64,000 nucleotides of DNA from Edaphobacter paludis (GCF_039993895.1 NZ_CP121194.1:2480001-2544000); one strand, 5' to 3'. Counted from the first letter of the stretch, positions 35,485-57,556 are shown. A program made the numbers and translations. The notes: generated by a model not told the origin, from the sequence alone.

Positions 35485-35491
35485 GAGTAAA

Positions 35492-36024: not shown

Positions 36025-36064
36025 CGGGATGCCGGACCTACTCCAGCCGGTATCCCGTTTTTTA
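36025..36064 (+). terminator. Intrinsic terminator before the small-gene operon
   Basis: Stem CGGGATGCCGG / CCGGTATCCCG (11 bp with one G-T pair), 11-base loop, then TTTTTTATT. It ends ten bases before the ribosome site of the next gene, so it separates the two transcription units. Confidence 0.82.
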
Positions 36065-36075
36065 TTGAAAGGAAG

Positions 36076-37107: not shown

Positions 37108-37950
37108 ACATTTAGACATTGCTGATGGATGCGCCACCTGGCCACCAGCAATACCCGTTCGCAATAGCGGGTTTATGGGATGATGCTTTCTTTGCGTGAT
37201 GGTTTTAGGCGGCTGTCACGATTTCCGTTCACATCATCTCATCAGGGGCAGCCGCTTGACTAGCAGGTTGCTGTCCCTCAACAACATTGATATGCGTTAG
37301 GGTGACTCATAACACCTTAACGAGTAGGGTTGGTCTTTTTCACACGAGTTGACGCTCTTCGCGTGTGCCTTTCTCCCAACCCGATGAACGGGGTAGTAGA
37401 GCGCAACTGCTCCTGCCCCGTCTCATTACCATCGCAATCCAAATGACATTGATCGTGTCCCATCGTGCTTACAGGCTGCGACGACATAGGACTGCGACTT
37501 GCCATCAGTTTGTCGAAGACTAATCACGTCAACGATTGTGTCGCAGTCTCCATTTTGATATTGCCGTGGGGATTCCTCACCCGTTCGACACGGCAATGGT
37601 TGGTGCCTACATCCGCAGTGCTCGTTCCACTGTGGAGACTCCTCACCAATCGTATGGCGTGGGGTGTGTCTGAGCTATGCTCCGCACTCCACCCATCAAC
37701 TACCAAACTCCTAACAGTAAAAATGATGTAACTATCATGTTATCAATAAGATGGTAGGCGGTCGAATTCTTACAGTACTGTTCAATCCGGAACCGACGCC
37801 AACCATTTGCGCGTGTATTCGCGAAATAAAAATTCTGAATTACTGGAAGTTTGAGGCAGGATCTTAGGCTGTTACTCGCCGTTTGCACAATCTGCAAAGC
37901 CAGTCTGCCTAACTACAGAGTACCAAACAACAGACAGGAAGTCAAGAATT
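37108..37950. other. Gene-free, repeat-rich stretch upstream of the terminases
   Basis: 843 bases without a supportable gene. It contains CGTTAGGGTG-8-CACCTTAACG (37295-37322, 10-bp arms with one G-T), the perfect inverted pair GACTGCGAC / GTCGCAGTC (37490-37498, 37540-37548) and direct repeats GTGGGGATTCCTCACC (37566-37581) and GTGGAGACTCCTCACC (37632-37647). Its place directly before the small terminase is where pac/cos sites and terminase-binding repeats are found in phages and satellites. Confidence 0.5.
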
Positions 37951-38469
37951 ATGGGCAGAAAAACTAAGCCTACAGCATTAAAGAAGTTACAAGGTAATCC
38001 TGGTAGACGTGCTCTGAATGACAGTGAGCCGCAATTCTCAGGCACTCCAAAGTGTCCGGCCTGGTTGGATAAAGACGCTAAGACGGAATGGAAACGAGTT
38101 ACTAGAGCATTGGCTGCACTAAAGATGCTTACCGCTGTAGATCAGGCCGCACTAGCTGGATATTGTAAGTCCTATTCAACGTGGAAACAGGCTGAGTTAC
38201 TGACTACTAAGCACGGCATCGTCCTATCTGAACCCATTCTGAGCAAGACGGGTGAGGTGATTGGACAGCGAATGAAGCGCAATCCAGCCACAACGATTGC
38301 CTCTGACTCCCTTAAATCACTTGCACGATACGGATCTTTGTTTGGATTCGATCCTTCATCGCGTGCTCGATTGCATATCTCCCCCAATGAAACGGCAGAC
38401 CCGTTTGAAGAGTTCCTAAATGCTGAAGACGATGAAACAGAAGATGTCTCCAGCGGAGGAATTCATTGA
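37951..38469 (+). CDS. Phage terminase small subunit (P27 family)
   Basis: 172 residues. The family N-terminus is clear: MGRKTKPTALKKLQGNPGRRALNDSEPQFSGTPKCPAWLDKDAKTEWKRV, followed by LTAVDQAALAGYCKSYSTWKQAE and an RNPATTIASDSLKSLARYGSLFGFDPSSRARL helix. The acidic C-terminus (DDETEDVSS) overlaps the large-subunit gene by 50 bases. It recognises the packaging site and recruits the large subunit. A weak AGGA-type site precedes the ATG. Confidence 0.93.
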   Translation: MGRKTKPTALKKLQGNPGRRALNDSEPQFSGTPKCPAWLDKDAKTEWKRVTRALAALKMLTAVDQAALAGYCKSYSTWKQAELLTTKHGIVLSEPILSKTGEVIGQRMKRNPATTIASDSLKSLARYGSLFGFDPSSRARLHISPNETADPFEEFLNAEDDETEDVSSGGIH

Positions 38470-40096: not shown

Positions 40097-40105
40097 AAAG
40101 AATTC

Positions 40106-41746: not shown

Positions 41747-42473
41747 AAATAAGCAGGAAATCCGCACACTGCCTGCAAAGGAATTGCGAATCGCTCCAGT
41801 AGCAGCAGACGGGACCAGAACCCTTACGGGCAGGGCGATTGTGTTCAATCAGCGCAGCCAAGATTTGGGCGGGTTTCAGGAGATTGTTTCGCCTGGTGCT
41901 GTAACTGAGACTTTGAGCGGCAGCCCCAATATCCTCCTACTTAACAATCACAACACCAGCCAGCCCCTTGCCTCCGTTCGCGCTGGTAATTTGCAGCTAA
42001 CAACGGATTCAAAGGGTGTGTCTTTCAGATGCAAACTGGATACGCGAATCAGCTATGCAAATGACTTGGCACTCTCTGTAGAAAATGGTGTCACTCAGGG
42101 ATGCAGCTTCGGATTCCGCACGCTCAAAGATTCGTATGCAAATGAAAATGGAACCCTGGTGAGAACACTCGAAACGATTGAGTTGCTAGAGCTAACAGTC
42201 ACTACCTGTCCCGCGTATTTGCAGACGCAGGTTGACGTTAGATCCTGCCCAAAGGAATTAAGAAGCCTTCTGACTCGTTCTCTTGATGATGAGGATGACG
42301 AGGATGAAGACGGACCTTGCGACGATCCAGACTGTGAAGCCTGCATTAACGGTGACTATGCTGATTGTCCCAATCGTGATGATGATGACGATGATGAGGA
42401 TGAAGACAGAAGCCTCAGCAAGTCTGAAGTCCGCCGTCTCGAAATGCGTCTAGCTCTCGCAAAACTGCGATAG
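41736..42473 (+). CDS. HK97-type prohead protease with acidic, Cys-bearing tail
   Basis: 245 residues. The protease domain (about 15-175) shows LTGRAIVFNQRSQDLGGFQEIVSPGAV, NHNTSQPLASV with the likely His, and GVTQGCSFGFRT with the nucleophile Ser. The remaining 70 residues are extremely acidic (runs of Asp/Glu) with a CDDPDCEACINGDYADC cluster, then a helical basic end. It should cleave the capsid scaffold/delta domain during maturation. The tail may serve as an internal scaffold or bind metal. ATG at 41736 chosen; it overlaps the portal gene. Confidence 0.92.
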   Translation: MNSKNKQEIRTLPAKELRIAPVAADGTRTLTGRAIVFNQRSQDLGGFQEIVSPGAVTETLSGSPNILLLNNHNTSQPLASVRAGNLQLTTDSKGVSFRCKLDTRISYANDLALSVENGVTQGCSFGFRTLKDSYANENGTLVRTLETIELLELTVTTCPAYLQTQVDVRSCPKELRSLLTRSLDDEDDEDEDGPCDDPDCEACINGDYADCPNRDDDDDDEDEDRSLSKSEVRRLEMRLALAKLR

Positions 42474-42622
42474 AGCAACAACCAAAAAGTTTACAGGGAT
42501 AGAACGCTTGGCCTTTTGGTCATGGCTTGGATGCCGTGCGTTGTGCCCCTTGGATGGAAGTTATCAGCGTGCAGTTGATAGCCGTCCTCCACCAAAAAAT
42601 CAAATCAAAGGTAACAAATAAA

Positions 42623-43849
42623 ATGTTGAATCTCAATGATCTAAAAGTGAAGCATGGCCAGTTGCTCAACGAAGCTAAAACCCTGATTACGGGTAAGAAT
42701 GTTACCAGCGAACATCGCAGTCAGTTCGATAAGATCGTAGCCTCTGCCGATGAAATCCAGCAGGATATCAACCGTCTGGAACAGGTTGCCAAGTTTGAGG
42801 CAGAATCCCGCTCCACCTCGAAGCCACCGCGCAGCCAGCCCGGTGAGCAGCAGGAAGCCACGCCAGAGCGTGTAGAGAATGAGAAGCGTGCATTCTCGCA
42901 GTGGTTCAAGACGGGCCATGTGAGTGAAGAGAACCGCAGCTATCTGCGTAGCTCAGAGACTCGTGATCTTGGTGCAGGCGCGGTGACTGGCTCGATTACT
43001 GGCGGGGCCTTCATGGTGCCAGTCTCGATGTATCCATCCATCATTCAAGCCAAGAAATCCTATGGCGCAATTTTGGCTTCGCTCGATACTCTCGTAACGG
43101 ACCACGGCAACCCGTTGCGTCTGAGCCTGAGCAATGATACCGGCAACGGTCTGACGGTCATCGGGGAAGCTGTAGCGGCCAGTGAGACAGACCCTATCCT
43201 TACGGGTGTAACCAGTTCCTGCGACTTCGTAACGACTGGCGTAGTCAAGGTGTCTCTGTCCCTCATTAGTCAGAGTGGCTTTGACCTCGAAGCCTTCCTC
43301 ACGCAGAACCTGTATCAGCGGTATTACCGTGGCCTCAGTCAGCTTGTAACCAACGGCTCGACCTCTGGCAACGTGGCATCGTTCACGGCCTCTGCAACGG
43401 CGGGTGTTACGACTGAGAACCCCATCTCCATCCAATATTCTGAGTTGACCAGTTTATTTGGTGCGCTTGACGCGAGTTTTGTCGAAACGTCCTCGTTCTA
43501 CATGACAAGCTCGACCAGGGCCTACCTCATGTCCCTTACGGCATCGGCTAGCGGATTGCCCGTCCTACAGCCAGATGCTAACGGCAATCCTTTTTCGAGC
43601 ATCTTTGGTCGTCCGATTGTTATTTCTCAGTTCAGCGATCAGATTGCAGCGACCAAGACGCCGATCCTGTTTGGTTCGGGTGTTGATAGCTACCTGGTCC
43701 GTGAGGCAGGCGGATTGAGCGTCTCCGTGATGCGAGAAGCGTTTTTGCCGCAAGGAGAATTGGGAGTGATTGGCTTTGGGTTGGTCGGAGGTGTCAGTAA
43801 GAATGCTGGCGTCTCTCCGCTGGTTGCTCTCAAGATGGCAACCTCGTAA
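42623..43849 (+). CDS. Major capsid protein (HK97 fold)
   Basis: 408 residues. An N-terminal delta-like coiled-coil region (about 1-95: LNDLKVKHGQLLNEAKTLITG..QFDKIVASADEIQQDINRLEQVAKFEAESRS) is followed by the HK97 shell: GAGAVTGSITGGAFMVPVSMYPSII, SFYMTSSTRAYLMSLTASASGLPVLQPDANGNPFSSIFGRPIVISQF and IGFGLVGGVSKNAGVSPL. It would build the prohead cleaved by the preceding protease. ATG at 42623 chosen with AAAGG upstream; 32 earlier codons are open but have no site. The gene is followed by a strong terminator. Confidence 0.95.
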   Translation: MLNLNDLKVKHGQLLNEAKTLITGKNVTSEHRSQFDKIVASADEIQQDINRLEQVAKFEAESRSTSKPPRSQPGEQQEATPERVENEKRAFSQWFKTGHVSEENRSYLRSSETRDLGAGAVTGSITGGAFMVPVSMYPSIIQAKKSYGAILASLDTLVTDHGNPLRLSLSNDTGNGLTVIGEAVAASETDPILTGVTSSCDFVTTGVVKVSLSLISQSGFDLEAFLTQNLYQRYYRGLSQLVTNGSTSGNVASFTASATAGVTTENPISIQYSELTSLFGALDASFVETSSFYMTSSTRAYLMSLTASASGLPVLQPDANGNPFSSIFGRPIVISQFSDQIAATKTPILFGSGVDSYLVREAGGLSVSVMREAFLPQGELGVIGFGLVGGVSKNAGVSPLVALKMATS

Positions 43850-43865
43850 GAATAATGTTTCCTGT

Positions 43866-43907
43866 CCCTGTATACATCTGAGAGAACCTGCTCACTCGTA
43901 TACAGGG
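43866..43907. repeat. 10-bp inverted repeat after the capsid gene
   Basis: CCCTGTATAC and its exact complement GTATACAGGG are separated by 22 bases. It lies just upstream of the capsid-operon terminator and could bind a protein or stabilise the mRNA end. Confidence 0.6.
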
Positions 43908-43943
43908 GAGTGAACACAACAGCTTCACATATTGGAAACAAAC

Positions 43944-43984
43944 TGCCCCGTCCTCTGGATACTCTCCATTGGGCGGGGCATTTT
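43944..43984 (+). terminator. Intrinsic terminator of the head-gene operon
   Basis: TGCCCCGTCC pairs with GGGCGGGGCA (10 bp, one G-T), with a 17-base loop, then TTTT. It ends the packaging/capsid operon just before the convergent small gene. Confidence 0.82.
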
Positions 43985-43989
43985 CTGCG

Positions 43990-44244
43990 TTAGGGGTTAA
44001 GGCATCGCTTGAGTCCAATTTCCAGCTTGTCCATGCGGTTGTAGAGACTTGTTAACAGTCGCTGCTCAGTCTTGGTTCTCTGTCTCCCTGCACTCTGTGC
44101 AATGATGGCAGCAATCTTCTTTGCTACCGTTTCCATCTTCAGGGCAGAGTCCATTACTCGCATTGGCATTTCAATGTATGGGCTGTAGCTGGATGATTGT
44201 GGACCGGAGAGAGGACGGACAGCGATTGTATTTGTTGCAGTCAT
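43990..44244 (-). CDS. Hypothetical element protein (reverse)
   Basis: 84 residues; AGGAG is placed eight bases before the ATG on the minus strand, which supports reality. Second half ETVAKKIAAIIAQSAGRQRTKTEQRLLTSLYNRMDKLEIGLKRC is helical and basic. It is convergent with the head operon and divergent from the next small gene; the two share a promoter region with a TGTCAAGACA palindrome. The function is unknown; a small regulator is a plausible guess. Confidence 0.6.
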   Translation of the reverse strand: MTATNTIAVRPLSGPQSSSYSPYIEMPMRVMDSALKMETVAKKIAAIIAQSAGRQRTKTEQRLLTSLYNRMDKLEIGLKRCLNP

Positions 44245-44301
44245 GATTAAGGCTCCTGGGTTGTTTCTAATTACTCAACCATAATCACACATGCACAAAA
44301 G

Positions 44302-44329
44302 TTATCGCAATGTCAAGACATTTTATACT
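44302..44329. promoter_or_regulatory. Divergent promoter/operator region inside the element
   Basis: On the plus strand TTATCG, 16 bases, TATACT points to the gene at 44394. On the minus strand TTGACATTGC (44316-44307) points to the gene at 44244. The palindrome TGTC-aa-GACA overlaps both. The ten bases TTGACATTGC also occur at 32642. Confidence 0.38.
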
Positions 44330-44393
44330 GCATGGATATTATTGAACGTAATAGAGTTAATAGCAAAAATGAAGAGAAAGGTATTCTGCTCAA

Positions 44394-44798
44394 ATGATGC
44401 AGCACTCAATACTCAAGGATTCGCACTTGGTCACAATCAATTACACAGGCGGCAGCAGTGATTCTCTCCATGCCGCAAAATTCACTGTTGACGCCAATGA
44501 CTCCACCGCACTCCTGGCTTTCGATCTGTCTTATAACCAGAGAAGAGGCAAACAGACGGACAACTATACGGACGTGACGTATCTGTTGGAACACTTAGCG
44601 AAAGTTCACATCATTCAAATGAACATAGATAAGGTGAGCAAAGAGCTAAGAAAGTACGACGACAGATATCCTAATGCCAAGTGGACATTGGAAATGGTGT
44701 TTGCAGATGGGGTGAAACATCATTTTCCCGGTAAGCTAAACGCGGGATTCAATTCCTTCACTGTGGCTGCACAGGACGGCGCAATTCCTACGTCTTAA
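44394..44798 (+). CDS. Hypothetical element protein 4
   Basis: 134 residues, soluble: LKDSHLVTINYTGGSSDSLHAAKFTVDANDSTALLAFDLSYNQRRGKQTDNYTDVTYLLEHLAKVHI, then a basic helical part ending in FTVAAQDGAIPTS. It is the last forward gene, converging on the integrase stop 12 bases away. I do not recognise it. Satellites often keep helper-interference or accessory genes in this position, but nothing in the sequence proves such a role. Confidence 0.58.
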   Translation: MMQHSILKDSHLVTINYTGGSSDSLHAAKFTVDANDSTALLAFDLSYNQRRGKQTDNYTDVTYLLEHLAKVHIIQMNIDKVSKELRKYDDRYPNAKWTLEMVFADGVKHHFPGKLNAGFNSFTVAAQDGAIPTS

Positions 44799-44810
44799 CC
44801 TGATGGCAGG

Positions 44811-46004
44811 TCATGCTGTCCAGTCAATCGAATTGATCTTGGATTGTGTGTGCGCATCCTCTTGTGGTCGCAAATAACGCATGGTTGAGGCTATGTCAGA
44901 GTGTCCCATCATCCCCTGTACCGTGCGGAGATCCAGACCAGACCGGAGCAACTGAGTGCAATAGGTGGCACGAAACTTGTGAAGAAACCACTTCTCACAC
45001 TCTTCCCTGCTCTTGCATCCCTCGCAACGTCCGCAGTTTAGCTCTGCCTTCTTAACCAAGCCTTTCAGCAACCGGAGCAACTTTGTGTGCGGCCTGTCTT
45101 TCGCATTGCCAATAACGAAGTGTTTGTCTGGATTCGCTTCCCTGTACTTTTTCAGCCTCTTAATCAAATCCAAGGGGATCGGGACAGACCGTTCCTCTTT
45201 ATCCTTGATCCTGAAACCTAATGATGGCTTTGAATGGATGGTGAGCGTTTGGGTCTGAAATGAAATGTCCTCCCATTCCAGATACATTGCTTCCTGTTCC
45301 CTCAATCCAGTCTTGAGCAAAAGATCGAAGATGAGCAGATGGTAGGGATCTGTCAGAAACTCGAAAAATGTCTTCAACTCTTTAGGGTCGTATATCTCAG
45401 GCAGAGTCTTATCGTATTTGGGTGCACTCTTGCCGAGGGCTGCCACAGGCACGCCACAATCGACTAGAAACGCCTTTACGTTCATGTGCCGGTTGTGAAC
45501 AGTACGAGCACCACACCCGCGCTTCTTGAGGGCTAAATGGTGGGCTGCAATGTCCTCTGCTGTCACCTGGTCAGCGTATGTCTTGCCTGTGACTGAAAGA
45601 AACTCACCTATTGCGAGACGGTATGCAGCGGCAGCAACGGTTGCCCCTCTGTCCTCTGCCGACTGGACAAATGTGTCGGCCCGACGCGATAGCAGAATGC
45701 GCCCTTTCTCTTCTACCAGCACGGCACCACCTGCCACGGCTGCATCACGCGCAACCAACAATTGCGCTTCCTTGTCTCTCTCCTGCAAGGCATCCTGCGC
45801 ATTGGTTCCAACATTGCGATAGACAGGCTTTGATCCTTTATAGGACCGCAACTCGTAATGCCCTTCCGCATACTCGCGGGGCTGGCCATCTACGACCACA
45901 TAGTTAGGTCTGATTCGTCCATTGCGACCAATGGCGACGGGGTAACGTCTCCACCCTTTTTCGGTTTTGCAGTATCGGAGTAGGATTACCTTGCGATTTG
46001 CCAT
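44811..46004 (-). CDS. int: Tyrosine integrase with Cys-cluster insertion
   Basis: 397 residues, reverse strand. Catalytic residues of tyrosine recombinases are recognisable: Arg in LLLKTGLREQEAMYLEW (about 236), the H-x-x-R pair in LHKFRAT (about 341-344), the late His in MMGHSD (about 365) and nucleophile Tyr in STMRYLRPQ (about 374). The N-terminal half has a core-binding domain (YADQVTAEDIAAHHLALKKRG). Unusual is NCGRCEGCKSREECEKW immediately before HxxR, four Cys in a zinc-ribbon-like spacing. It catalyses insertion at the tRNA-Ser end; its start lies 105 bases from attR. AGAGG serves as ribosome site. Confidence 0.95.
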   Translation of the reverse strand: MANRKVILLRYCKTEKGWRRYPVAIGRNGRIRPNYVVVDGQPREYAEGHYELRSYKGSKPVYRNVGTNAQDALQERDKEAQLLVARDAAVAGGAVLVEEKGRILLSRRADTFVQSAEDRGATVAAAAYRLAIGEFLSVTGKTYADQVTAEDIAAHHLALKKRGCGARTVHNRHMNVKAFLVDCGVPVAALGKSAPKYDKTLPEIYDPKELKTFFEFLTDPYHLLIFDLLLKTGLREQEAMYLEWEDISFQTQTLTIHSKPSLGFRIKDKEERSVPIPLDLIKRLKKYREANPDKHFVIGNAKDRPHTKLLRLLKGLVKKAELNCGRCEGCKSREECEKWFLHKFRATYCTQLLRSGLDLRTVQGMMGHSDIASTMRYLRPQEDAHTQSKINSIDWTA

Positions 46005-46024
46005 GAGCTAGCCTCTGGAGGTGT

Positions 46025-46036
46025 TTTACCTCGCTA
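46025..46036 (+). repeat. Candidate integrase arm site near attR
   Basis: TTTACCTCGCTA, matching the pair at 32486 and 32504 at ten or more of twelve positions. It lies 21 bases upstream of the integrase start. Confidence 0.4.
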
Positions 46037-46108
46037 AAATCTAGCTATGACTATATGCCAACATCTAAGTAATTGTAAACAATAAGGTAACAGATTATTA
46101 GCTTACAG

Positions 46109-46127
46109 TCCCTGTCTCTCCGCCATA
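46109..46127 (+). repeat. Right attachment site (attR)
   Basis: The 19 bases are identical to tRNA-Ser 32377-32395. Only the 3' piece of the tRNA is duplicated here; the upstream part is unrelated, as expected for the far junction of an integrated element. Confidence 0.92.
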
Positions 46128-46169
46128 AACTAGTTCCAAGACTTCCAAAGACATCTAAACGAGATCATC

Positions 46170-46201
46170 TAACCCCAGAAAATACTGGGGTTATGTTTTT
46201 T
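46170..46201 (+). terminator. Intrinsic terminator just right of attR
   Basis: TAACCCCAG-aaaata-CTGGGGTTA, a 9-bp perfect stem, then TG and six Ts. It could be the original tRNA-Ser terminator pushed right by integration, or belong to the second island. Confidence 0.75.
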
Positions 46202-46237
46202 AGCGTCCAATAAGGTACAGGGGGAGCCAGCGCTGGG

Positions 46238-46282
46238 TGCGGGTACATTCGCAGGTATCCTCCTCGCGTAATGCGGGTACAT
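46238..46282 (+). repeat. Direct repeats in the leader of the integrase pseudogene
   Basis: TGCGGGTACAT at 46238 and 46272, with a looser relative (CGCAGGTATCC) between. Such GCGGGTA words before DUF4102-type integrases are plausible arm sites. Confidence 0.5.
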
Positions 46283-46308
46283 CTCAGAAAAACGGGTGCG
46301 AGAGCACG

Positions 46309-47525
46309 ATGTCGCTTACCGATACCGAGATCCGAAGGGCCAAGAAGAGGGAGAAGCCCTACAATCTGAGCGATGGCGGAAACCTCTACCTATGGATCAC
46401 GCCTCCGGGTGGGAAGCTGTGGCGCTGGGCTTACAGGTATGAGGGAAAAGCGAAACTCATGACCTTTGGAAGGTACCCTGAGATTCCCCTTGCACTGGCC
46501 AGGGAGCGCCACGGTGAAGCCCGCAAGCTATTGGCAGTCGGCGTTGATCCGATGGCGAAGCGCAAAGGCGATAGAGCCGCGAGCAAGGCATCTGACGCGA
46601 ACTCCTTTCAAACTATCGCGCAACTGTGGCTGGAGCACTGGAAGCAGGGTAAGAGCGCTCGCCATGCCGACGGTACGCGGCGACGATTGAAGGCGAATGT
46701 GTATCCTCTGCTGGGCATCCGCCCTATTACGGAGATCGAAGCTCCCGAACTTGTGGCGATGGTCAAGGCAATCGAGACGAGGGGCGCAGCTGATTTGGCC
46801 AAGCGAGCACTGGAGACAACCGGGCAGATCTTCCGTTATGCCATCGCGCACGGCTGCGCTAAGCGCAACACCGCCGCCGACATCAAGCCCCGGGACGTTC
46901 TCAAGCCGACTCGCACGGTCAATCTCGCCCGCGTAAACGCCAAGGAATTACCTGCGCTGCTGAGAGCGATCGAGGTCTACCGAGGGAAAGTGATTACCCG
47001 ACTGGCAATGAAACTGATGGCTCTAACCTTCGTTCGCACGTCTGAACTGATCGGCGCTCGCTGGGATGAGTTCGACTTAGAGGCGCAGCGCTGGAATATC
47101 CCAGCCGAGCGGATGAAGATGAAGACCTCGCACATTGTCTCGTTGGCCACTCAGGCTTTGGAACTTTTGGAACTGTTGCGCCCGCTGACAGGAGGCAGCG
47201 AGCTGCTCTTCCCCGGCGACCGCGATCACCGAAAGCCCATGAGCAATAACACCATTCTGGGATCGCTGAAACGCATGGGCTATGGCGGCGTCATGACCGG
47301 CCACGGTTTAGGGGGCTCGCGAGCACGATCCTTCACGAGCAGGGATATCAGCATGAGCATATCGAGTTGCAGCTTGCCCACGCGCCTCGTAATGCGGTGA
47401 GCGCCGCTTATAACCATGCGCTCTATCTGGAGCCGCGAGCGAAGATGATGCAGCAATGGGCGGACTTCTTAGAACAAACTCAACGCGGCGCCAAGGTCTT
47501 AGTCTTTCGGGACGTGGTGGCATAG
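46309..47525 (+). pseudogene. DUF4102-type tyrosine integrase, frameshifted
   Basis: Reads MSLTDTEIRRAKKREKPYNLSDGGNLYLWITPPGGKLWRWAYRYEGK..., the DUF4102/P4-type N-terminal arm domain, then a core-binding domain (FQTIAQLWLEHWKQGKSARH) and LTFVRTSELIGARWDEFDL with the first catalytic Arg. In GHGLGG, near 47312, one base is missing compared with the family GHGFRGLAS. The frame then fails, while the expected end (LASTILHEQGYQHEHIELQLAHAPRNAVSAAYNHALYLEPRAKMMQQWADF) continues in another frame to 47525. The HxxR Arg is lost even if the frame is repaired. It marks the left end of the second island. Confidence 0.88.
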
Positions 47526-47574
47526 TGCCAGTCTTCAATCTGGGCGTAACCGTGTCGTCGCTCTCCATCAGCAC

Positions 47575-47779
47575 GTTTTTCTAGCTCCGGAAGCTGTTTG
47601 CTGAGCCAGATCGAGTGCGTCCCAGCCTTCATGGCCACTCGTGTCGGAGGCACATCAATAAACCACTTCTCGACTCCCTTCGGAGCGGCTTTGAAACGGT
47701 TTCGATCGACCACTTCTACTTCTTCGTTGAGCGTGCAGTAATAGCTCTAGACATCTCCAAGGTTGATACCGACCATCAT
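47575..47779 (-). pseudogene. IS110-family transposase N-terminal remnant
   Basis: Minus-strand translation GINLGDV-stop-SYYCTLNEEVEVVDRNRFKAAPKGVEKWF then IDVPPTRVAMKAGTHSIWLSKQL is the N-terminal RuvC-like part of IS110-family transposases, with the usual W of GDxW turned into a TAG stop. Similarity ends at about LPELEK; the rest of the gene is gone. No inverted repeats are seen, as expected of IS110. Confidence 0.75.
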
Positions 47780-47950
47780 CTCAACCCTAGGCTGTCTGCA
47801 TTGGACTTTCGCGACGAGGTGCTGCGAAGAATTTTTCATAGGAAACAGCTCTTTCTCTTTTGAAAGGCCTGCTCATCCTATTTTCCAAATTAATTCGCAA
47901 GACAGAGAAATATGGTTCAGGAGTGACTGTATTTCGATTTTCGGTGCAGA

Positions 47951-48103
47951 TTACTTTTTCCATTGATCGAGTGCCTGAAGCAGGACCATCACAAAAATCC
48001 ACATTAGAACCACCATAATCAATCCAAAACCCACCCAGAAAAGTATCTGCACAAGCTGACTTCCGAACGGTTGCTTTTTCCGCGGATAACGATTTTTCGA
48101 CAT
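47951..48103 (-). CDS. 50-residue membrane protein downstream of the metal pump
   Basis: Reads MSKNRYPRKKQPFGSQLVQI then LFWVGFGLIMVVLMWIFVMVLLQALDQWKK. A basic N-terminus is followed by one long hydrophobic helix rich in Met. It begins 53 bases after the czcA stop on the same strand. A longer frame over the same bases in another phase has no such organisation. Small helices of this kind sometimes accompany RND pumps; the role here is inference. Confidence 0.58.
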   Translation of the reverse strand: MSKNRYPRKKQPFGSQLVQILFWVGFGLIMVVLMWIFVMVLLQALDQWKK

Positions 48104-48156
48104 CAGTCACTCGGATTTCGAAGAATGTTTTTAAGTGCAGAGCAGAAATTTCGGCG

Positions 48157-51100
48157 CTAATTCTGAAACTCTGTCTCCACAGCAGGAAGAATGTCATCGT
48201 CGTCAGCAATCCAAACGTATAACGTGGGCAGCAGGAAAACACTCATCACTAGACTGGCGACTAGACCGCCGACGATCACAATGGCAAATGGCCGCTGCGA
48301 ATCGGAGCCAATTCCGTGTGACAACGCAGCAGGCAGAAGACCGAGCGTTGCCACGAGCATCGTGATCATGATCGGGCGCAGGCGTAGAACGGCGCCTTCC
48401 ACTGCAGATTCTTCGATCCCATTGCCACGTGCACGTAACTGGTTGATGTATTCAAGCATGATGACGCCTGTCTGCACCGATACGCCGAATAGTGCCAGCA
48501 GTCCGACATCAGAAGAGACGCTGAAGTTAGTATGTGTGACCAGGAGCGCCACCAGTCCGCCGATGCTGGCCAGAAGCACATTGGCCATGATGAGCATCGC
48601 CCACTTGAAGGACTTGAACATCGTGTAGAGGATAAGAAAGATGAGCAGCACTGTAACGGGAAGTACTACCGCAAATCGCCGGTTAGCGCGCTTCTGGCTT
48701 TCATACTCGCCGGCCCAGTCGAAGTGATATCCAGGCGGAAGTTTTACCTCTTTGTTTACATGTGCGATCGCTTCTTCCACAGTGCTGCCCAGATCGCGTC
48801 CGCGCACGCTGTACTTAATTGCCACATAACGCTGGCCGCCCTCGCGGTAAATCTCCTCTGCTCCATCATCGGTAGTCGCATTTGTGAGTTGTGCAAGAGA
48901 TACGCGTTCGCCCGATGGAGAGAGCAGGCGGATGTTCTCGATGGCTTCTCGGGTATCTCGATATTGTTTCTGGTACCGTAATGTGACATCGTAACGTGCA
49001 TCACCCTTCAATACCTGCGTGAGCGCCCCACCGCCGACTGCTGTCTGAATAGCATCCTGGACATCCGCAACATTGATGCCCCAGCGCGCAGCAGCATCGC
49101 GGTTTACGGTGAGATTGAGGTTAGGTTGGCCGATGATGCGGAAGAGTCCCAGATCCTGCACTCCGCGCACGTGACTCATGACGTCGACTACTTGATTGCC
49201 CTTTGCTTCGAGAGTCTTCAGATCGTCACCGTAAATTTTTACTGCCAACTCGCCTTTTACTCCGCTGACGGCTTCTTCCATGTTGTCCGAGATCGGCTGC
49301 GAGAAGTTCCAGATCACTCCGGGCATTTTCTCCAACTGCTGATTCATGGCAGCGATCAATTCATCCTTGTTCTGGTGAAAGACAGAACGCCATTCTTCCT
49401 TTTGCTTTAGATCTACAAAATACTCGGTATTGAAGAAACCGGTTGTGTCGGTGCCATCATCGGGACGGCCAACCTGGCTGACCACCTGCTTGACTTCAGG
49501 AAATGAAGACATAACAATGCGGGCCTTGTTCATCAGGTCCACACCCTCGGTTGGGCCAGTGCTTGGCGCGAGCGTGCCGCGAACCCACAGCGCTCCTTCA
49601 TCGAGGTGAGGTAGAAACTCTGAACCGATGGCGCCTCCAAAGGCAAGAAATGCGGCAACCAGGAGTGCGCCTACTGCCACTCCTACCGTGAGGACGCGGC
49701 GTTTAATGGCCCATTTTACCGCTGGACGGTATCGAACGGTAAGCCACGTCATTACCGGATTAGCCCACTCTTTAGCACCGCGCTGAAAGAAGAAATCTGC
49801 CAGCACCGGGGCAATGAGCATAGAGAAGGTGAGCGCGCCGAGAAGAGCAAACGCTACCGTCCAGGCCATCGGTTTGAAGAGACGCCCTTCTACGGACTGT
49901 AGCGTAAAGATTGGAAGATAGGCAGTGATAATGATAGCAATCGCATAGAAAACGGGGCGCTGTACTTCGTGTGCGGCGTCGCGAATTTTATCTCTTGGGC
50001 TGCGATAGTCGGTTCCATTGTGACTCAGGTGGCGGATGATGTTCTCGATCATAACTACGGCGCCGTCTACCACCATGCCGAAGTCGAGAGCGCCAAGCGA
50101 AAGAAGGTTCGCCGGAATGTGCCGTAGATCGAGACATATCGACGCGAACAGTAGCGAGAAAGGAATGGTAAGCGCAACGATAAAAGCGCCGCGAGCATTC
50201 CCGAGGAACAGAAACAAAATGATCGCCACGAGAATAATGCCGTGCGCCATGTTGTGGAGCACAGTATGCGTTGTGAAATGCACTAAATCAGACCGATCAA
50301 GGAACGGAACAATCTTCACTCCCTTGGGAAGGATATGATCGTTCAACTCGTCGGTCATTTTGTGAATGGCCTGGAGTACCGGGTCGGCATCGTCGCCTTT
50401 TTGCAGAAGAACGACACCTTCTACAACGTCATCGTTATCGACGACTTTGCCGTCCACGCGCCGGATGGCTTTGCCGATCTGCCCCAGACGGATCTTCGAG
50501 CCTTGCGTTACAGTCGCAATGTCTTTGATCCGCAGTGGCGTTCCGCTCTGCGTTTTGATAACTGTATTGGCGATGTCCTGAATGCTTGTGAAGAGGCCGA
50601 CGGAGCGCACATTGATCTGCTGGCTGCCCTCCTCGATAAAGCTGCCGCCGGCATTTACATTGTTATTCGCGAGCTGTTGTTCTACCTGGCCGATGCTTAG
50701 CCCATACGAGATGAGTTTGTCGGGGTCCAGCCGTACCTGATACTCCTTGGTTGTTCCTCCGAAGCTCGAAACGTCCACGACTCCAGGGACATTTTTGTAT
50801 GCCTTCTCCAGTGTCCAATCTTCGAGCGACTTCAATTCCATCAGGTCGTACGAAGGGTTTTTGCTCTCCAGCGTGTACCAGTAAATTTGCCCTACGGGAC
50901 TCCAGTCGGTACCGATTTGCGGCTGTAGACCGGTAGGCAGGGTGACTTGCGAAAGCCTTTCCAGCACATGCTCGCGGTTCCAGTCATTCGTCGAATCGTC
51001 ATCGAAGACCATGGTGACGCTGGAAAGTCCCGCCAGCGACACTGATCGCAGATGCTGCATGTGCGGGATGCCGGCCATCGCTATTTCGAGGGGAATTGTA

Positions 51101-51294
51101 ACCTGCTGTTCCACCTCTTCCGACGCGCGGCCAGGCCATTGAGTGATCACCTGCACATAATTGTTTGCAACGTCTGGATACGCTTCAATAGGCAGGTTGC
51201 GAAACGAGAGAATACCCCAGCAAAACAACAGGACGGCACCGCCAAGCACAATCCAGCGGTTCCGGAGCGCAAAATCAACCAGTGCACGAATCAT
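48157..51294 (-). CDS. czcA: Heavy-metal efflux RND pump (CzcA/CusA-like)
   Basis: 1045 residues, reverse strand. It belongs to the HME branch: LSLGALDFGMVVDGAVVMIENIIRHLSH near residue 400 has the single-Asp TM4 motif DFGxxVDGAVVxxEN of Czc/Cnr/Cus pumps, unlike the DD of the other RND pump in this window. The N-terminus (IVLGGAVLLFCWGILSFRNLPIEAYPDV) is also typical. It should export divalent or monovalent metal ions (Co/Zn/Cd or Cu/Ag) from the periplasm by proton exchange. The adaptor gene ends one base before its start region. The metal cannot be named with certainty. Confidence 0.94.
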   Translation of the reverse strand: MIRALVDFALRNRWIVLGGAVLLFCWGILSFRNLPIEAYPDVANNYVQVITQWPGRASEEVEQQVTIPLEIAMAGIPHMQHLRSVSLAGLSSVTMVFDDDSTNDWNREHVLERLSQVTLPTGLQPQIGTDWSPVGQIYWYTLESKNPSYDLMELKSLEDWTLEKAYKNVPGVVDVSSFGGTTKEYQVRLDPDKLISYGLSIGQVEQQLANNNVNAGGSFIEEGSQQINVRSVGLFTSIQDIANTVIKTQSGTPLRIKDIATVTQGSKIRLGQIGKAIRRVDGKVVDNDDVVEGVVLLQKGDDADPVLQAIHKMTDELNDHILPKGVKIVPFLDRSDLVHFTTHTVLHNMAHGIILVAIILFLFLGNARGAFIVALTIPFSLLFASICLDLRHIPANLLSLGALDFGMVVDGAVVMIENIIRHLSHNGTDYRSPRDKIRDAAHEVQRPVFYAIAIIITAYLPIFTLQSVEGRLFKPMAWTVAFALLGALTFSMLIAPVLADFFFQRGAKEWANPVMTWLTVRYRPAVKWAIKRRVLTVGVAVGALLVAAFLAFGGAIGSEFLPHLDEGALWVRGTLAPSTGPTEGVDLMNKARIVMSSFPEVKQVVSQVGRPDDGTDTTGFFNTEYFVDLKQKEEWRSVFHQNKDELIAAMNQQLEKMPGVIWNFSQPISDNMEEAVSGVKGELAVKIYGDDLKTLEAKGNQVVDVMSHVRGVQDLGLFRIIGQPNLNLTVNRDAAARWGINVADVQDAIQTAVGGGALTQVLKGDARYDVTLRYQKQYRDTREAIENIRLLSPSGERVSLAQLTNATTDDGAEEIYREGGQRYVAIKYSVRGRDLGSTVEEAIAHVNKEVKLPPGYHFDWAGEYESQKRANRRFAVVLPVTVLLIFLILYTMFKSFKWAMLIMANVLLASIGGLVALLVTHTNFSVSSDVGLLALFGVSVQTGVIMLEYINQLRARGNGIEESAVEGAVLRLRPIMITMLVATLGLLPAALSHGIGSDSQRPFAIVIVGGLVASLVMSVFLLPTLYVWIADDDDILPAVETEFQN

Positions 51295-52425
51295 CTACTG
51301 CTCCACCGTACTGTTCAGTGAAAGTGCATTGCTGACCACCTGCTGGCCTGCACTGACGCCCGACATGATCTCCTGCTGATTGTTCGGCAGCATTTTGCCC
51401 GTGGTAACTTCCACTCGCCGGAACTGATTGTCTCCGGCAGGAACAAAGACCCAATCCCGATCGTGCAGATGGAGGACCGCATCTGCCGGAACTGTGGCCC
51501 GCTGTTCGAGATGTTTCCCATGGAAATTAGCCGTGACAAACATACCGATATTCATGAATCCAGGGTTGTGTACCTGAAGACGTACCTGGGCAGTTCGGAG
51601 ATTCGGATCAAGGATCGGGCTGATATTGCTGATCGTACCGGTGAGAACCTTATCGGGATAGGCATTGAAGTGAATGTCTGCCGTCTGTCCAAGATGGATG
51701 GAAGGAATGTCGTTCTCATACACGTTGCAGATCACCCAGACATCGGAAAGATTGGCAATCGTGAAAGCTGTGGAGGATCCTGAATAGGTGACGCCCGCGG
51801 CTGCAGCATCTGTCACGTTTTGCGTAACGACTACACCGGATGTCGGTGCGTACACGTTAACAATGTTGCTCGGGTGATCTTTATCAATACCCAGCGTCTG
51901 CAATTGTTGCTCTGCTGCATGTAAGTCGGCTACTGCATCCTGCTCTGTATTCTGTGCCTGTTCGAGCTGGCTTTGTGGAATCGCGCCATGCTGATAAAGA
52001 ATTTCTGCGCGCCTTAACTGGGTAGTCGCGAGATGCTCATCGTTGACCGCTTTGAGGTATGTATTGAATGCTCCGGCGACGTCATTGCTTTGCACCCGCA
52101 TGAGCAACTGTCCTTTCTTTACGGTATCTCCAAGCCGTACACGAATATCAACGACACGACCTGATGCGAGCGAGATGACAGGAAGCATTTTGGCGATATC
52201 GGGATTCACCGTTCCTGTCACATTCAGATCAGAGGCAGCCTGATAGGGAGCGGATACCGTTAACGGAAATTGTTCTGGGTGATCGACAGTCACTTCGTTT
52301 GAATCTGAAACGTGGATTACCTGTGTTGGTGGAGGTGCACCAGCTGCAGGGTCGGACTTTTTTTCGCACGCGGTCAGCGAAAGGCAGATGATGCAGCCGA
52401 CAGCTTTCAATATAAACTTACGCAT
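51295..52425 (-). CDS. czcB: Metal-efflux periplasmic adaptor lipoprotein (CzcB-like)
   Basis: 376 residues. Lipobox LTAC gives lipidated Cys20. Adaptor domains follow: PVISLASGRVVDIRVRLGDTVKKGQLLMRVQS (lipoyl half 1), a helical hairpin (about 120-190), NIVNVYAPTSGVVVTQNVTDAA (lipoyl half 2) and a beta-barrel (VWVICNVYENDIPSIHLGQTADIHFNAYPD). It links the pump to the outer-membrane channel. Its stop overlaps the start region of the pump gene and its ATG overlaps the stop of the channel gene by one base. Confidence 0.93.
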   Translation of the reverse strand: MRKFILKAVGCIICLSLTACEKKSDPAAGAPPPTQVIHVSDSNEVTVDHPEQFPLTVSAPYQAASDLNVTGTVNPDIAKMLPVISLASGRVVDIRVRLGDTVKKGQLLMRVQSNDVAGAFNTYLKAVNDEHLATTQLRRAEILYQHGAIPQSQLEQAQNTEQDAVADLHAAEQQLQTLGIDKDHPSNIVNVYAPTSGVVVTQNVTDAAAAGVTYSGSSTAFTIANLSDVWVICNVYENDIPSIHLGQTADIHFNAYPDKVLTGTISNISPILDPNLRTAQVRLQVHNPGFMNIGMFVTANFHGKHLEQRATVPADAVLHLHDRDWVFVPAGDNQFRRVEVTTGKMLPNNQQEIMSGVSAGQQVVSNALSLNSTVEQ

Positions 52426-53705
52426 TATTGGATCACCTCGCGCCCAACGGCAAGATTCAACTGGCTCGCGGCCGTTAAATAAGAACCGACCAGTTGTAGA
52501 TAGGCCAACTGGACATTGCGGTAGTCACTCTGCGCATTGAGAAAATCCAGCAAAGAAGCTCCACCGTGCTGATAAGAGAACGTGATGGTGTCGCGGACGC
52601 GAGAGGCTTGCGCCAGATATTTGTCTTTGTATGGCCGGAGCAAGATGAGATTGCTGTTCACCTGTGCATGGGCCGAATCGACATCAGCGAACACCTGCGC
52701 CCGCACCGCATCCTCTACTTGCTGATTGCGTCCGATGTCCAGTTGCGTACGTTGCTTTTCGCCCTGATTGCGATCGAAGATGCGAAGTGGAATGCTCACG
52801 CTGGCGCCCACTGTCTGGTGGGCATACGGATTATTAAAGGATGGGTTGTACGTATACCACGCGCTGAACGTTGGATCGGTTGAACCATTGGCGATAGCCA
52901 ATTTATGGTTAGTGATCGACTGCTGAGCCGACTCAAGAGCTGCTCTCAGATCAGGACGGTTATCGAGGGCGATCTGGCGGAACGTTGCAAGCGGCTGCAA
53001 TTGGTCAGAGAAATCAAAAGTACCCTGAACATCAAACTGGTCTACCGGCGTTTTGTCATTAAGCAGTTGAAGCAGCTGAATCTTGGACGTTCGCAGATTT
53101 ACTTCAGCTGTTTGTAGATCGGACTCATACTGCACGCGCTGCAACTCAATTCGATCCAGGTCCACCTGCGCGAGGTCTCCCTGCTTGAAGCGGTCGCGGC
53201 TGATATCGATGATGTGATCGTAGTAATCAAGTTCCTGACGCGCCAACTGTAGTACCGCTTTTGCCTGGAGAGTCTGCACGAATACTGACCTTAGATTGAA
53301 AAGAAGATTCCGCTCAAGATCCTCGTGTTGCGACCCTGCAATTTGAGTGCCCTCTTTCGCAGTCTCCAGACGGAATTCCCTTTTGCGGTCGCGTTCATGG
53401 AGGTAACTAAAATTCGATTGATATTGAGTTCCTACCAATGGTTGCCAAACTCCTTTATAAGGAGTGAGTTGGGTCCCATCCGTTGATAAGGTGAGTTGGG
53501 GATTCGGCCTGAGATAAGCCGTGATTTCCTCGGCTTTCATCTCCTGCACGTTGATGGCATCCGCCTTCAACGTAGGATTTGCGGTTTCAAACTTGATCTT
53601 AACTTGCTCCCACGTCAGGCCGGTTTGCGCGTTCAAAGACATGCTTGTGAGCATCAGAGCGGCACAAGACAAAAGCAGAGAAATAAATGGCTTTCTGAGA
53701 ATCAT
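52425..53705 (-). CDS. czcC: Outer membrane channel of the metal pump (CzcC/TolC-like)
   Basis: 426 residues with a signal peptide (FISLLLSCAALMLTSMSLNAQ). The outer-membrane-factor core is visible: LTWEQVKIKFETANPTLKADAINVQEMKAEEITAYLRPNPQL, LRSVFVQTLQAKAVLQLARQELDYYDHII, and a second-half IALDNRPDLRAALESAQQSITNHKLAIANGS. First gene of the reverse czcCBA operon. The 288 bases upstream, up to the divergent kinase gene, contain two inverted repeats that could be operators. Confidence 0.92.
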   Translation of the reverse strand: MILRKPFISLLLSCAALMLTSMSLNAQTGLTWEQVKIKFETANPTLKADAINVQEMKAEEITAYLRPNPQLTLSTDGTQLTPYKGVWQPLVGTQYQSNFSYLHERDRKREFRLETAKEGTQIAGSQHEDLERNLLFNLRSVFVQTLQAKAVLQLARQELDYYDHIIDISRDRFKQGDLAQVDLDRIELQRVQYESDLQTAEVNLRTSKIQLLQLLNDKTPVDQFDVQGTFDFSDQLQPLATFRQIALDNRPDLRAALESAQQSITNHKLAIANGSTDPTFSAWYTYNPSFNNPYAHQTVGASVSIPLRIFDRNQGEKQRTQLDIGRNQQVEDAVRAQVFADVDSAHAQVNSNLILLRPYKDKYLAQASRVRDTITFSYQHGGASLLDFLNAQSDYRNVQLAYLQLVGSYLTAASQLNLAVGREVIQ

Positions 53706-53763
53706 GCAATAAATTCGGCTTCGGAGTATGGTTCGAGGAAGTGTGTTCCCAGATTTAAGCTAC

Positions 53764-53816
53764 CCACCTAATGATGTTTAGGTGGCAAAGGCTCAGGAAA
53801 TGCTCTACTCGTAGAG
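53764..53816. promoter_or_regulatory. Two inverted repeats between czcC and the kinase gene
   Basis: CCACCTAA-6-TTAGGTGG (53764-53785) and CTCTAC-tc-GTAGAG (53803-53816). They lie in the divergent intergenic region and are good candidates for binding sites of the response regulator, although only sequence symmetry supports this. Confidence 0.5.
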
Positions 53817-53993
53817 TAGAGGCATAGAGTGGCGAAATCGCCCTATCTATCAGACACAGAGGCTATCTTTCGGCTATCCAGCATTGAGCCATCAAAGGAT
53901 GCGGGCACCATGTTTTATACCGAAGTCACAAAAAAATGAGCCGTTAATACAATGAAAGAGCTTACGTTCCCTAGTTGCTAAGGCAGGAAAATC

Positions 53994-55388
53994 ATGCTTT
54001 CGTCAGTGTTTCAAGGCAGCAAGAAATCCGTTTTGGTCAGCACCAGCGTGTTAATTGTGGTGATCGCACTGATTGATTGGCGCGCGATTAATGAACTTCC
54101 GCTAGGTTTTCTTTACCTGCTTCCAATGCTCATGGTGGGAAGAATCCTGAATCCTCGCCAGATTGCTCTAGTCGCCGCACTATGTACATTTCTCACTGAG
54201 ATTTTTGATGAATTTGTTTGGAGTTTTAGAACAGGAATTCCCCGCGATATCTTGTACTTCTCCGGCTTCTTTTGCGCGGGCTTATTTGTGTGTGAAATCA
54301 ACCGAAGTCGCCGCACTGCCATCGAACACTTGCATGAAATTGAGAGACAGCGAGACGCGCGTCGCGATGCTGAAGATCAACTTAAGGTACTGGTAGAAAG
54401 TAGCCCCGCAGCCATCGTCACTACTGACTCGACTGGATGCGTTGTCATGGCGAATGAAGCAGCTCATCGAATGCTGGCGTTGCAACCCGGTGTTCTTCCG
54501 GGACAATTGATTCATCGGTATTTTCCATCTCTTGTAAATGTCTCCCGCCAGGAAGCGACACCTCGCCTCTTTCGCACGATGATGCAATCCCGCGGTCAGC
54601 GTGCTGACGGAGAAGTATTTTTGGCAGAGATTTGTTTTTCGACCTATCGTACAAATGGCGGGACGCGCCTCGCAGCCATGATTCTGGATACATCCGAAGA
54701 ACTTCGTACTCGTGAGGAGAGCAGTCTGCACCAAATGCTGGCCGGGTCGCGCATCGCAGCGGCAGCAGTTTCCCATGAAGTTCGCAATGTATCCGGCGCT
54801 ATTTCAGTAGTTCATCAGAATCTCGCACGTAGCGGACTGCTTTCTCAAAATAAGGACTTTGAAGCCCTCGGAAGTCTCCTGCATGCGTTGGAACGTATCG
54901 CTGGCGTAGACCTGCGTCAATATACAGACCAGACTGCGGAGACTGACCTGACCTCCGTACTTGACGATGTGCGGATCGTAGTGGCACCGGCGCTTAGGGA
55001 AGCTGGGATCGAAGGCCGATGGGAGATTCCTTCCGAACTACCTGTGGTGTGGGCAGACCAGCAGAATCTTATGCAGGTCTTTCTGAATCTGGCCTCGAAT
55101 AGTATTCGCGCACTTACAGATAGAGACGACAAAAAGCTGTCTATTGTAGCCAGAGTCAGCGATCAGTATGTGCTGATTGAGTTCACTGACAACGCCGGTG
55201 GGGTAGCTTATCCCGATCAATTGTTTCGTCCATTTCAAAGGGAAGCGCAGATAACAGGCCTCGGTCTATTTCTGTCACGTGCTTTTATGCGCGCTTGTAG
55301 AGGCGAACTGCGATACAGGCCCATCCCAGGGGGAGCCTGTTTCATCGTCGAGATGCCAATTGTGGAACAATCAAAGGGGCTCGCATGA
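53994..55388 (+). CDS. Membrane sensor histidine kinase (four helices, PAS)
   Basis: 464 residues. About four N-terminal membrane helices with short loops (SVLVSTSVLIVVIALI, LGFLYLLPMLMVGRIL, IALVAALCTFLTEIF, ILYFSGFFCAGLFVC) imply sensing within the membrane. A PAS domain (about 125-230) follows, then H box AAAVSHEVRNVSGA, N box FLNLASNSIRAL and G boxes DNAGGV and GLGLFLSRAFM. It is divergent from czcCBA and coupled (ATGA) to the response regulator. I infer metal or envelope-stress sensing. AGGAAAATC before the ATG supports the start. Confidence 0.9.
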   Translation: MLSSVFQGSKKSVLVSTSVLIVVIALIDWRAINELPLGFLYLLPMLMVGRILNPRQIALVAALCTFLTEIFDEFVWSFRTGIPRDILYFSGFFCAGLFVCEINRSRRTAIEHLHEIERQRDARRDAEDQLKVLVESSPAAIVTTDSTGCVVMANEAAHRMLALQPGVLPGQLIHRYFPSLVNVSRQEATPRLFRTMMQSRGQRADGEVFLAEICFSTYRTNGGTRLAAMILDTSEELRTREESSLHQMLAGSRIAAAAVSHEVRNVSGAISVVHQNLARSGLLSQNKDFEALGSLLHALERIAGVDLRQYTDQTAETDLTSVLDDVRIVVAPALREAGIEGRWEIPSELPVVWADQQNLMQVFLNLASNSIRALTDRDDKKLSIVARVSDQYVLIEFTDNAGGVAYPDQLFRPFQREAQITGLGLFLSRAFMRACRGELRYRPIPGGACFIVEMPIVEQSKGLA

Positions 55389-56056
55389 GCACTCCAACAC
55401 GCATTCTACTGCTCGACGATCACAGTCTTTTTCGCGAAAGCCTTGTCCGGCTTCTCGAGTCGGAGCCGGATTTCCGTGTTGTGGCCCATTGTGCAACCGT
55501 TTCCGCGGCAATCGATGTTCTCCAACGGACCCCAATTGATGTTGTCCTGCTGGACTATGATCTCGGCGAAGAGCGGGGAACCGATCTACTGCGCCAGCTT
55601 CATGCCTGCAAAAGCTCGCCAAGAGTGCTGATGGTAACGGCGGGGATAAGTGAGCGTACCACTCTGGACATACTTAATGCTGGTGTGGCCGGAGTTCTTT
55701 TCAAACATAGCAATCCAACTCAGTTGGTGGATGCTATTCGAAAAATAGCACAGGGCGAGATGTGGCTTGACGGCGGCATCGTTCGATCATTGGTGTCGGG
55801 AGTAAAAGACCGAGGCGCAGAGACTCGGAACACGCGACCGCTGACCTCACGCCAGCAAGAGGTTCTTTCAGGAATTCTCGATGGCCTCACTAATAAAGAG
55901 ATTGCGTGGAATCTGAAGGTTTCAGAAAGCTCGATTAAGGCCGTGATTCAGGAGTTGTTCCAGAAGGCGGGGGTGAGAACACGTAGCCAATTGGTGAGAA
56001 TCGCCATCGAAAAACATGCTGGCGACTGGCTCAGTAATGACAAGAAGCTAGGATAG
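55385..56056 (+). CDS. NarL/FixJ-type response regulator
   Basis: 223 residues. Receiver: Asp11/Asp12 (LLLDDHS), phosphoacceptor Asp57 (LLDYDLG), Thr85 (MVTAG), Lys107 (LFKHSN), all complete. C-terminal LuxR-type HTH (LTSRQQEVLSGILDGLTNKEIAWNLKVSESSIKAVIQELFQKAGVRTRSQL). It should bind DNA as a phosphorylated dimer; the divergent repeats upstream of czcC are natural targets. It is co-translated with the kinase. Confidence 0.94.
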   Translation: MSTPTRILLLDDHSLFRESLVRLLESEPDFRVVAHCATVSAAIDVLQRTPIDVVLLDYDLGEERGTDLLRQLHACKSSPRVLMVTAGISERTTLDILNAGVAGVLFKHSNPTQLVDAIRKIAQGEMWLDGGIVRSLVSGVKDRGAETRNTRPLTSRQQEVLSGILDGLTNKEIAWNLKVSESSIKAVIQELFQKAGVRTRSQLVRIAIEKHAGDWLSNDKKLG

Positions 56057-56743
56057 GCCGAATCAACTGACCGGGGCAGGCTATTTAGCGTTGGGAGGTC
56101 AGCAGATTGGAAGTGCGCTCATTTCCAATCGTCAAGGTTCTTAAACCCTCCGGCTAAAGGTATCTGGAAATTGAGCTTCAAGTTGCGATAACAGGGCGAT
56201 GCACTCATCCGCTCCGTTTGAGACCGCGATTTCTGCTAGATGCAAAGTTGTCCGTGGATACAGCTTTGTCCCTCATACTCTAGGCCGCTTCGAAATATCC
56301 CGTATATTACGTGGAGCAACAGCGATGAGCACCTGTAGACGGTTTTGTTTCGGGCCAGGAGGCACGGAAAGAGATCAGTGCCGGCATGTAAAGCGCTCTT
56401 CTCAGGTGACGATTCCCGGCACGATCCGAGACGCCAATCGACTCCTGGGATGGCGCACCGCGATCTGGTTAGCCAAATCACCAAAGCTCTCGTCACTCAG
56501 GTCTCTCAATTGCTTTATGAGCGCCGAGCAAATTCTTTCTCCGCTTTGTGCGCGCTATTTTTGAACTCCATCATGCAACCGCTCTGTGCGCTTCTGGATC
56601 CACTTCGTGACTACTTGTGCCAGCACGCAAAACTGTTTGATCGAACACACGGCTCACAGTTGTTCCGTTGGCCTGCTTATCTCAGGAAGGTTAAGTTCGG
56701 TTATCATGGCAATTCCCTGCCGGGCTGAACGCTGGGACGGACC
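56057..56743. other. Gene-poor stretch in the second island
   Basis: About 690 bases. GATTGGAA-10-TTCCAATC (56105-56130) is a perfect 8-bp hairpin 50 bases after the regulator gene, perhaps its terminator. The frames of 90-130 codons here lack ribosome sites and I do not support any as genes. It may hold decayed island DNA. Confidence 0.5.
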
Positions 56744-56944
56744 CTAAAGCCGGACGGTGCGACTCTCAAGCCATTGGTCGATCTGATTCTCTATCCAGCC
56801 AACCGCCCGCGCGCCGAGCGAAACAGGCTTGGGGAAGATGCCGTCAGACATCATCTTGTAGATCGAACTGCGAGAGATGCCCGTGCGCGATTCGACTTGT
56901 TTACGGCGAAGAATTGAGACGGATGAGCAGGCTTGCTGTGACAT
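56744..56944 (-). CDS. AlpA-family transcriptional regulator
   Basis: 66 residues. SILRRKQVESRTGISRSSIYKMMSDGIFPKPVSLGARAVGWIENQIDQWLESR is a complete AlpA/HTH_17 domain with the typical FPKPV and VGW signatures. AAGGAGCAACC directly before the ATG is a strong ribosome site. AlpA proteins regulate integrase expression or excision in P4-like islands. It sits at the right end of the second island. Confidence 0.9.
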   Translation of the reverse strand: MSQQACSSVSILRRKQVESRTGISRSSIYKMMSDGIFPKPVSLGARAVGWIENQIDQWLESRTVRL

Positions 56945-57556
56945 GGTTGCTCCTTGAGATTTTGGCGCTAAACACTGAACCCTGGCTACTGGGCTTGGCT
57001 CTGCGTGGTAATCCCACGGATAATCTCGCCCTTTGAGAAGGCGGCACCAACACTGTTGCAGCTAGTACACCAAATTCAAGGTCGACGGTTATTCCGCTGA
57101 ACGCTCAGAGATTCCATTGCAGGCCGACCTACCAGCCCTCCGTCGTGGCAGAAATTATAAATAGGTTTCACGTTTGCACGTGTCAATTCGCGAAGTGGTC
57201 CAAGAATTGTGCCGGTGAGGGTACTTTTGCGGGCACTTCAAGACAACACATTTCTATCCACTTGAAATTGAGCAACTTGCGGTTAGATAAGAATCCCTGT
57301 CTCTTTTAAGGGGCTTTCATAATCAACGATTTAGCCACTAACCAGTTCACAATCAATACTTACAAGCAATCCGATAATTCTGGACGAATCGCCCATTTCG
57401 GCTTTTTTTGGCTCCTTTTGGGCCTGTTTTGGATACCATGGATGGATACCTCCCCGCCTGCACATCTAATTCTTGGCTGTCAGCGAATCACGCGGTACGT
57501 GGCTCAGTTTAAAATTCTTGCCGATAGATTCTATGGCCGGCGCCAAAATCGTCTCA
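56945..57556. other. Right end of the second island: att-like match, REP word and AATCAA repeats
   Basis: 612 bases without a gene. GAATCCCTGTCTCT (57291-57304) equals the tRNA-Ser end over 14 bases; TTTTAAGGGGCTTT (57304-57317) equals part of the REP element at 7584; AATCAA at 57321 and 57351 has 30-base spacing as at 15688. The mixture suggests a junction between island and host DNA. Confidence 0.5.

Follow-up and report, generated by a model that had tools for sequence, protein, structure and literature searches.

Evidence for tandem occupation of a tRNA-Ser(GGA) gene in an acidobacterium by a capsid-coding satellite and a decayed P4-type element with a czcCBA module

The host is an acidobacterium of or near the GTDB genus Edaphobacter, as seen from the relatives compared. 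We analysed a 64-kb stretch of DNA (the window; bases 2480001-2544000) of its genome, which is one contig of 4.04 Mb. The sole tRNA gene in the window is tRNA-Ser(GGA), and an Rfam search of the window finds nothing besides it. To its right lies a satellite-like element, element A, and past the attR of the satellite we find, from left to right, a broken integrase gene, czcCBA on the minus strand, a kinase and a regulator on the plus strand, an AlpA gene on the minus strand, and a 14-base copy of the tRNA end. We call the part from 46109 to 57304 element B. All features are collected in Table 1.

Table 1. Features at the tRNA-Ser(GGA) locus, in window coordinates.
Feature	Position	Strand	Basis or remark
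tRNA-Ser(GGA), attachment gene for elements A and B	32306-32393	+	ARAGORN, Rfam RF00005
Element A, capsid-coding, satellite-like	32394-46108	.	Pfam/PHROGs
Tyrosine integrase of element A, intact	44811-46004	-	Pfam Phage_integrase, E 1.9e-26
att copy common to A and B, TCCCTGTCTCTCCGCCATA	46109-46127	+	sequence, script
Decayed arm-like repeats, left end of B, GCGGGTACATTCGCAGGTATCC	46237-46260	+	sequence; decayed pair
P4-type integrase of element B, one frameshift	46309-47524	+	Pfam, frame reading
Decayed remnant, IS110-type transposase N-terminus by eye	47560-47860	-	no Pfam match
Putative membrane peptide, 50 residues, directly downstream of czcA	47951-48103	-	also in G001 (C2:197547-197699)
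CzcA-type HME-RND pump	48157-51294	-	TIGR00914, 948 bits
CzcB-type periplasmic adaptor	51295-52425	-	HlyD_D23
CzcC-type outer-membrane factor	52425-53705	-	OEP
Membrane PAS histidine kinase, divergent from czcC	53994-55388	+	Pfam
NarL/LuxR-type response regulator	55385-56056	+	Pfam
AlpA-type excisionase/regulator	56744-56944	-	Pfam PF05930, E 5.6e-22; PHROG excisionase
Decayed arm-like tandem repeats, right end of B, GAGGGTACTTTTGCGGGCACTTC	57217-57239	+	74 bp from core
Right att core of element B, GAATCCCTGTCTCT	57291-57304	+	sequence search, G001/G024 junctions
Probable 37-bp insertion in att site, starting with REP-like piece	57305-57341	+	sequence comparison
Probable native-site continuation, CCAGTTCACAATCAATACTTAC	57342-57363	+	like CCACTTTAGAATCAATAACTTAC at G001 junction

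Element A encodes TerS, TerL, a portal protein, an S78 protease and a major capsid protein together with its own integrase, which is unrelated to that of element B; no tail genes are seen in it. In this gene content it resembles the capsid-forming PICIs, small integrative elements that have terminase, portal, protease and capsid genes. At its right end, the 19 bp shared with element B repeat exactly the 3' end of the tRNA plus TA. A different capsid-bearing element occupies the same position in another species of the genus (G001), where the A-type element repeats 60 bp of the tRNA versus 19 bp in the window.

The integrase gene of element B begins about 182 bp from the tRNA-side att copy. Pfam identifies the domains Arm-DNA-bind_3, Phage_int_M and Phage_integrase between 46309 and 47400. 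The first frame ends at MTGHGL, and the remaining 71 residues, RGLASTILHEQGY and the rest of the C-terminus, are read in another frame from 47310 to 47524. The frameshift near 47305 falls within the HxxR box, so that the product lacks the HxxR arginine and, with the C-terminal part, the region in which the nucleophile is expected. Between the att copy and the gene we find a decayed pair of arm-like repeats; the left end in G001 carries an intact pair of the same type (GGGGGTATTTCAGGGGGTATC). An IS110 assignment for the remnant right of the integrase was considered and set aside, as the resemblance is by eye only and Pfam gave no match.

In the czc module (czcCBA at 48157-53705, two-component genes at 53994-56056), czcA, czcB and czcC are all full length and form one operon, and these genes and the two-component genes have lengths equal to those of their G001 counterparts. 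As in other CzcCBA HME-RND systems, the three subunits come in the order C-B-A and CzcA scores above the TIGR00914 cut-off (701 bits), but the regulator here is a NarL/LuxR-type pair, while the CzcRS regulators of CzcCBA systems are OmpR-type. CzcA reads GALDFGMVVDGAVVMIEN, with the acidic D-D-E residues typical of Zn/Co/Cd-type pumps retained, and export of Co, Zn or Cd is predicted. The module has likely been kept as a working metal-efflux unit. Pairing of the czc operon with NarL/LuxR-type two-component genes is seen across the genus. The 50-residue peptide next to czcA, not evident in most other czc loci, might be a small partner of the pump.

The initial annotation had described this region as a decayed metal-resistance island, with an integrase pseudogene right of attR, a czcCBA operon with two-component regulators, then AlpA and a 14-base partial tRNA end. 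The gene order and the pseudogene are borne out by our analysis, as are AlpA and the partial tRNA end; the decay concerns the mobility part, and the czc genes are intact.

In G001, too, AlpA lies just left of the right end, and many relatives have it near their integrase gene. Allowing at most one mismatch, the 14-mer has just two matches in the 4.04-Mb genome, the tRNA and position 57291, the latter on the strand expected from the tRNA. In G001 (C2:181026) and in a further species of the same genus, G024 (C7:157436), the partial tRNA copy starts at the identical base, GAATCCCTGTCTC, and arm-like tandem repeats lie inside the core at an offset of 74-76 bp (GGGGGTATTTTCGGGGGTATT in G001, GGGGGTATGTTTGGGGGTATG in G024). 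For the 110 bp inside the core, the alignment of the window with G001 beats 2000 of 2000 random windows and that with G024 beats 1999 of 2000. Because of the same first base in both species and the arm repeats at a matching offset, position 57291 is a true element end.

To the right of the core, comparison with the G001 junction supports, with moderate confidence, a 37-bp insertion into the right att site, after which the native site probably continues (the likeness of the two continuations is equalled by 9-23 of about 20000 random windows). Since the HxxR box is frameshifted, the arm sites have decayed and a small insertion sits at the right att, element B is very likely immobile now. Right of the complete tRNA in the window, G001 and G024 stands a short CTTTAGAATCAATAACTTAC-like block, and it recurs past the outer att copy (57342-57363 in the window); this suggests that, for some elements, the block of identity reaches past the tRNA. 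Farther right, the flank from 57 to 84 kb in window coordinates has no counterpart in the G001 and G024 stretches compared (about 27 kb, from 57400 to about 84400), with synteny resuming near 84-88 kb; a DNA search of the relatives with the right flank gives no syntenic match.

Relatives of the B integrase show how this family uses tRNA genes. We found 22 in 61 genomes. In 20 of the 22, a complete tRNA adjoins the integrase, and the tRNAs include several Ser isoacceptors as well as Gln, Pro, Val, Arg and Glu. Only the window and G001 depart from this, and in both an element with capsid and integrase genes lies between the tRNA and the P4-type integrase. In another relative (G044), a related integrase (63% identity) stands directly at an intact tRNA-Ser(GGA) that is flanked by the same genes on its left; this type of integrase therefore uses tRNA-Ser(GGA) on its own, and the satellite is a further occupant. 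The P4-type integrase element at that tRNA-Ser(GGA) (G044, C12, about 184100-191800) has Phage_capsid and Peptidase_S78 genes of its own, which shows that either integrase type can be accompanied by capsid genes. Among 40 relatives we find no strict empty site: the tRNA is present, and the sequence to its right differs in nearly every genome examined. In one relative (G012), a copy of the tRNA end with an identical flank of 17 bp lies 17 kb to the right. The tRNA-Ser(GGA) gene is a hotspot for integration. A different arrangement is seen in G021, where a 5' half copy (bases 1-43; C12:33924-33966) lies about 10 kb from the complete tRNA-Ser (C12:23939-24026), with homologues of the G001 satellite genes between the two; it looks like an insertion at the anticodon loop.

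Taken with the G001 and G024 junctions, the tRNA-adjacent integrases and the G044 arrangement give good support to two element types in tandem at one tRNA, as had been proposed. Tandem or composite islands that form at tRNAs by accretion are described, for example, in an IME review (PMC5704250) and in a report on a tRNA-Trp composite (PMC8978831). Stacking of elements at a tRNA is thus a known pattern, found here with matching end sequences in related species. Element B carries the direct repeat of the tRNA 3' end at both of its ends. It shares with the tRNA islands with P4-type (Arm-DNA-bind_3) integrases the integrase beside the tRNA-side att, the 3'-end tRNA direct repeats, AlpA, cargo genes and several elements on one site; the acidobacterial host, the capsid satellite next to the tRNA and the immobilised island are different. 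P4-like satellites (PMC8628076) likewise have a P4-type integrase and AlpA, but in B the inside is filled by czc and two-component genes, and the ORFs tested between 46309 and 56944 have no Pfam match to a P4-type primase/helicase or to capsid-size genes. No relaxase or type IV secretion genes are seen among the long ORFs inside B, all of which are the integrase, czcABC and the two-component genes. In the literature searched, no paper on this tRNA-Ser locus was found.

Where the czc module came from bears on how the locus was built. Whole or partial czcCBA with divergent kinase and regulator genes occurs at 8 or more other loci in related species, with no tRNA near them in the stretches examined. 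The G001 module is found outside the last att copy, 6.4 kb to its right and in inverted orientation, and an asparagine-synthase-like gene (so called on the basis of its sequence) separates the kinase gene from czcC. When the window and G001 are compared at fourfold-degenerate sites, the module has an identity of 0.37-0.61, housekeeping genes have 0.43-0.82, and the two genes that lie left of the tRNA have 0.39-0.41. The overlap with the housekeeping range indicates no recent exchange, and we rejected a recent transfer of czc between the two lineages. A simple inversion relating the two arrangements was rejected as well, since the minus strand would then carry the outer att copy. The common ancestor of the two lineages probably had the module at or close to this locus already; the module may be cargo of B, or may have been drawn in or enclosed later from a neighbouring position.

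The history that we consider highly probable is one in which B entered tRNA-Ser(GGA), A came to occupy the same site, and B was immobilised with the czc module between its ends. In that history, the element with the P4-type integrase would have entered the 3' end of the tRNA. The satellite would have taken the site between tRNA and B either by inserting into the tRNA after B or by B inserting into the attR of A. With the loss of mobility of B, czcCBA and the divergent two-component genes would have been retained. The gene order, the repeats, the frameshift, the decayed arms and the homologous ends in other species are read directly from sequence, from which the insertion events, the loss of mobility and the metal efflux are inferred.

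One alternative, possible although we hold it to be unlikely, is that czc, rather than being island cargo, is an old chromosomal neighbour of tRNA-Ser that became enclosed by later insertion and rearrangement. The fourfold-site identities agree with this, as does the nearness of the module to this tRNA in the window and in G001, but the stretches examined around the module in other species of the genus contain no tRNA, in G023 the module and tRNA-Ser are 505 kb apart on the same contig, and the G+C of the module is below that of its flanks.

A little less probable, and doubtful in our view, is a collapsed array of more than two elements, in which one P4-type element supplied the integrase as its left end, another supplied AlpA and the 57291 site as its right end, and czc was situated between the two or next to them. 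The integrase side and the AlpA and att side could indeed derive from separate members of one element family. The position of czc outside the att array and inverted in G001 is consistent with this, as are the remnants on both sides of czc in the window. Between the window and G001, the integrases share just 62% identity, far under the 87-96% of housekeeping genes, so that B and the G001 element are separate arrivals. Against a collapsed array, the left and right arm repeats in the window share GGGTAC and GC variants unseen in G001 and G024, which favours one element, and no further att copy is found between 46127 and 57291.

It is scarcely credible that the match at 57291 arose by chance or belongs to a REP element, with the tRNA used by one element only: the REP-like 16-mer TCTTTTAAGGGGCTTT (57302-57317) does begin within the match but overlaps it by 3 of 14 bases, so does not fully explain it as the initial annotation had allowed for, and the 14-mer occurs nowhere else in the genome except in the tRNA, lies on the right strand and has homologous junctions with arm repeats in two other species. 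The REP-like repeat with GGGGCTTTAGCCC occurs at 7540-7602 and 15234-15296, and the piece in the right att is a partial copy.

Returning to the reading of B as one immobilised element behind satellite A, the intact integrase and capsid genes of A might excise A and package it along with the crippled B, via the tRNA and the outer 57291 site. We regard this as very improbable; if true, a trapped metal-efflux island would still spread in satellite particles.

The locus shows how elements of unlike kind accrete and decay step by step at a single tRNA, in a phylum whose mobile elements have been little studied. For an integrase family whose members target several different tRNAs within the genus, it provides the sequences of the element ends (core and arm-like repeats). 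In two species a capsid satellite separates the tRNA from a P4-type element, so that tRNA-Ser(GGA) is a good place for testing the order of insertion and the dependence of one element on the other.
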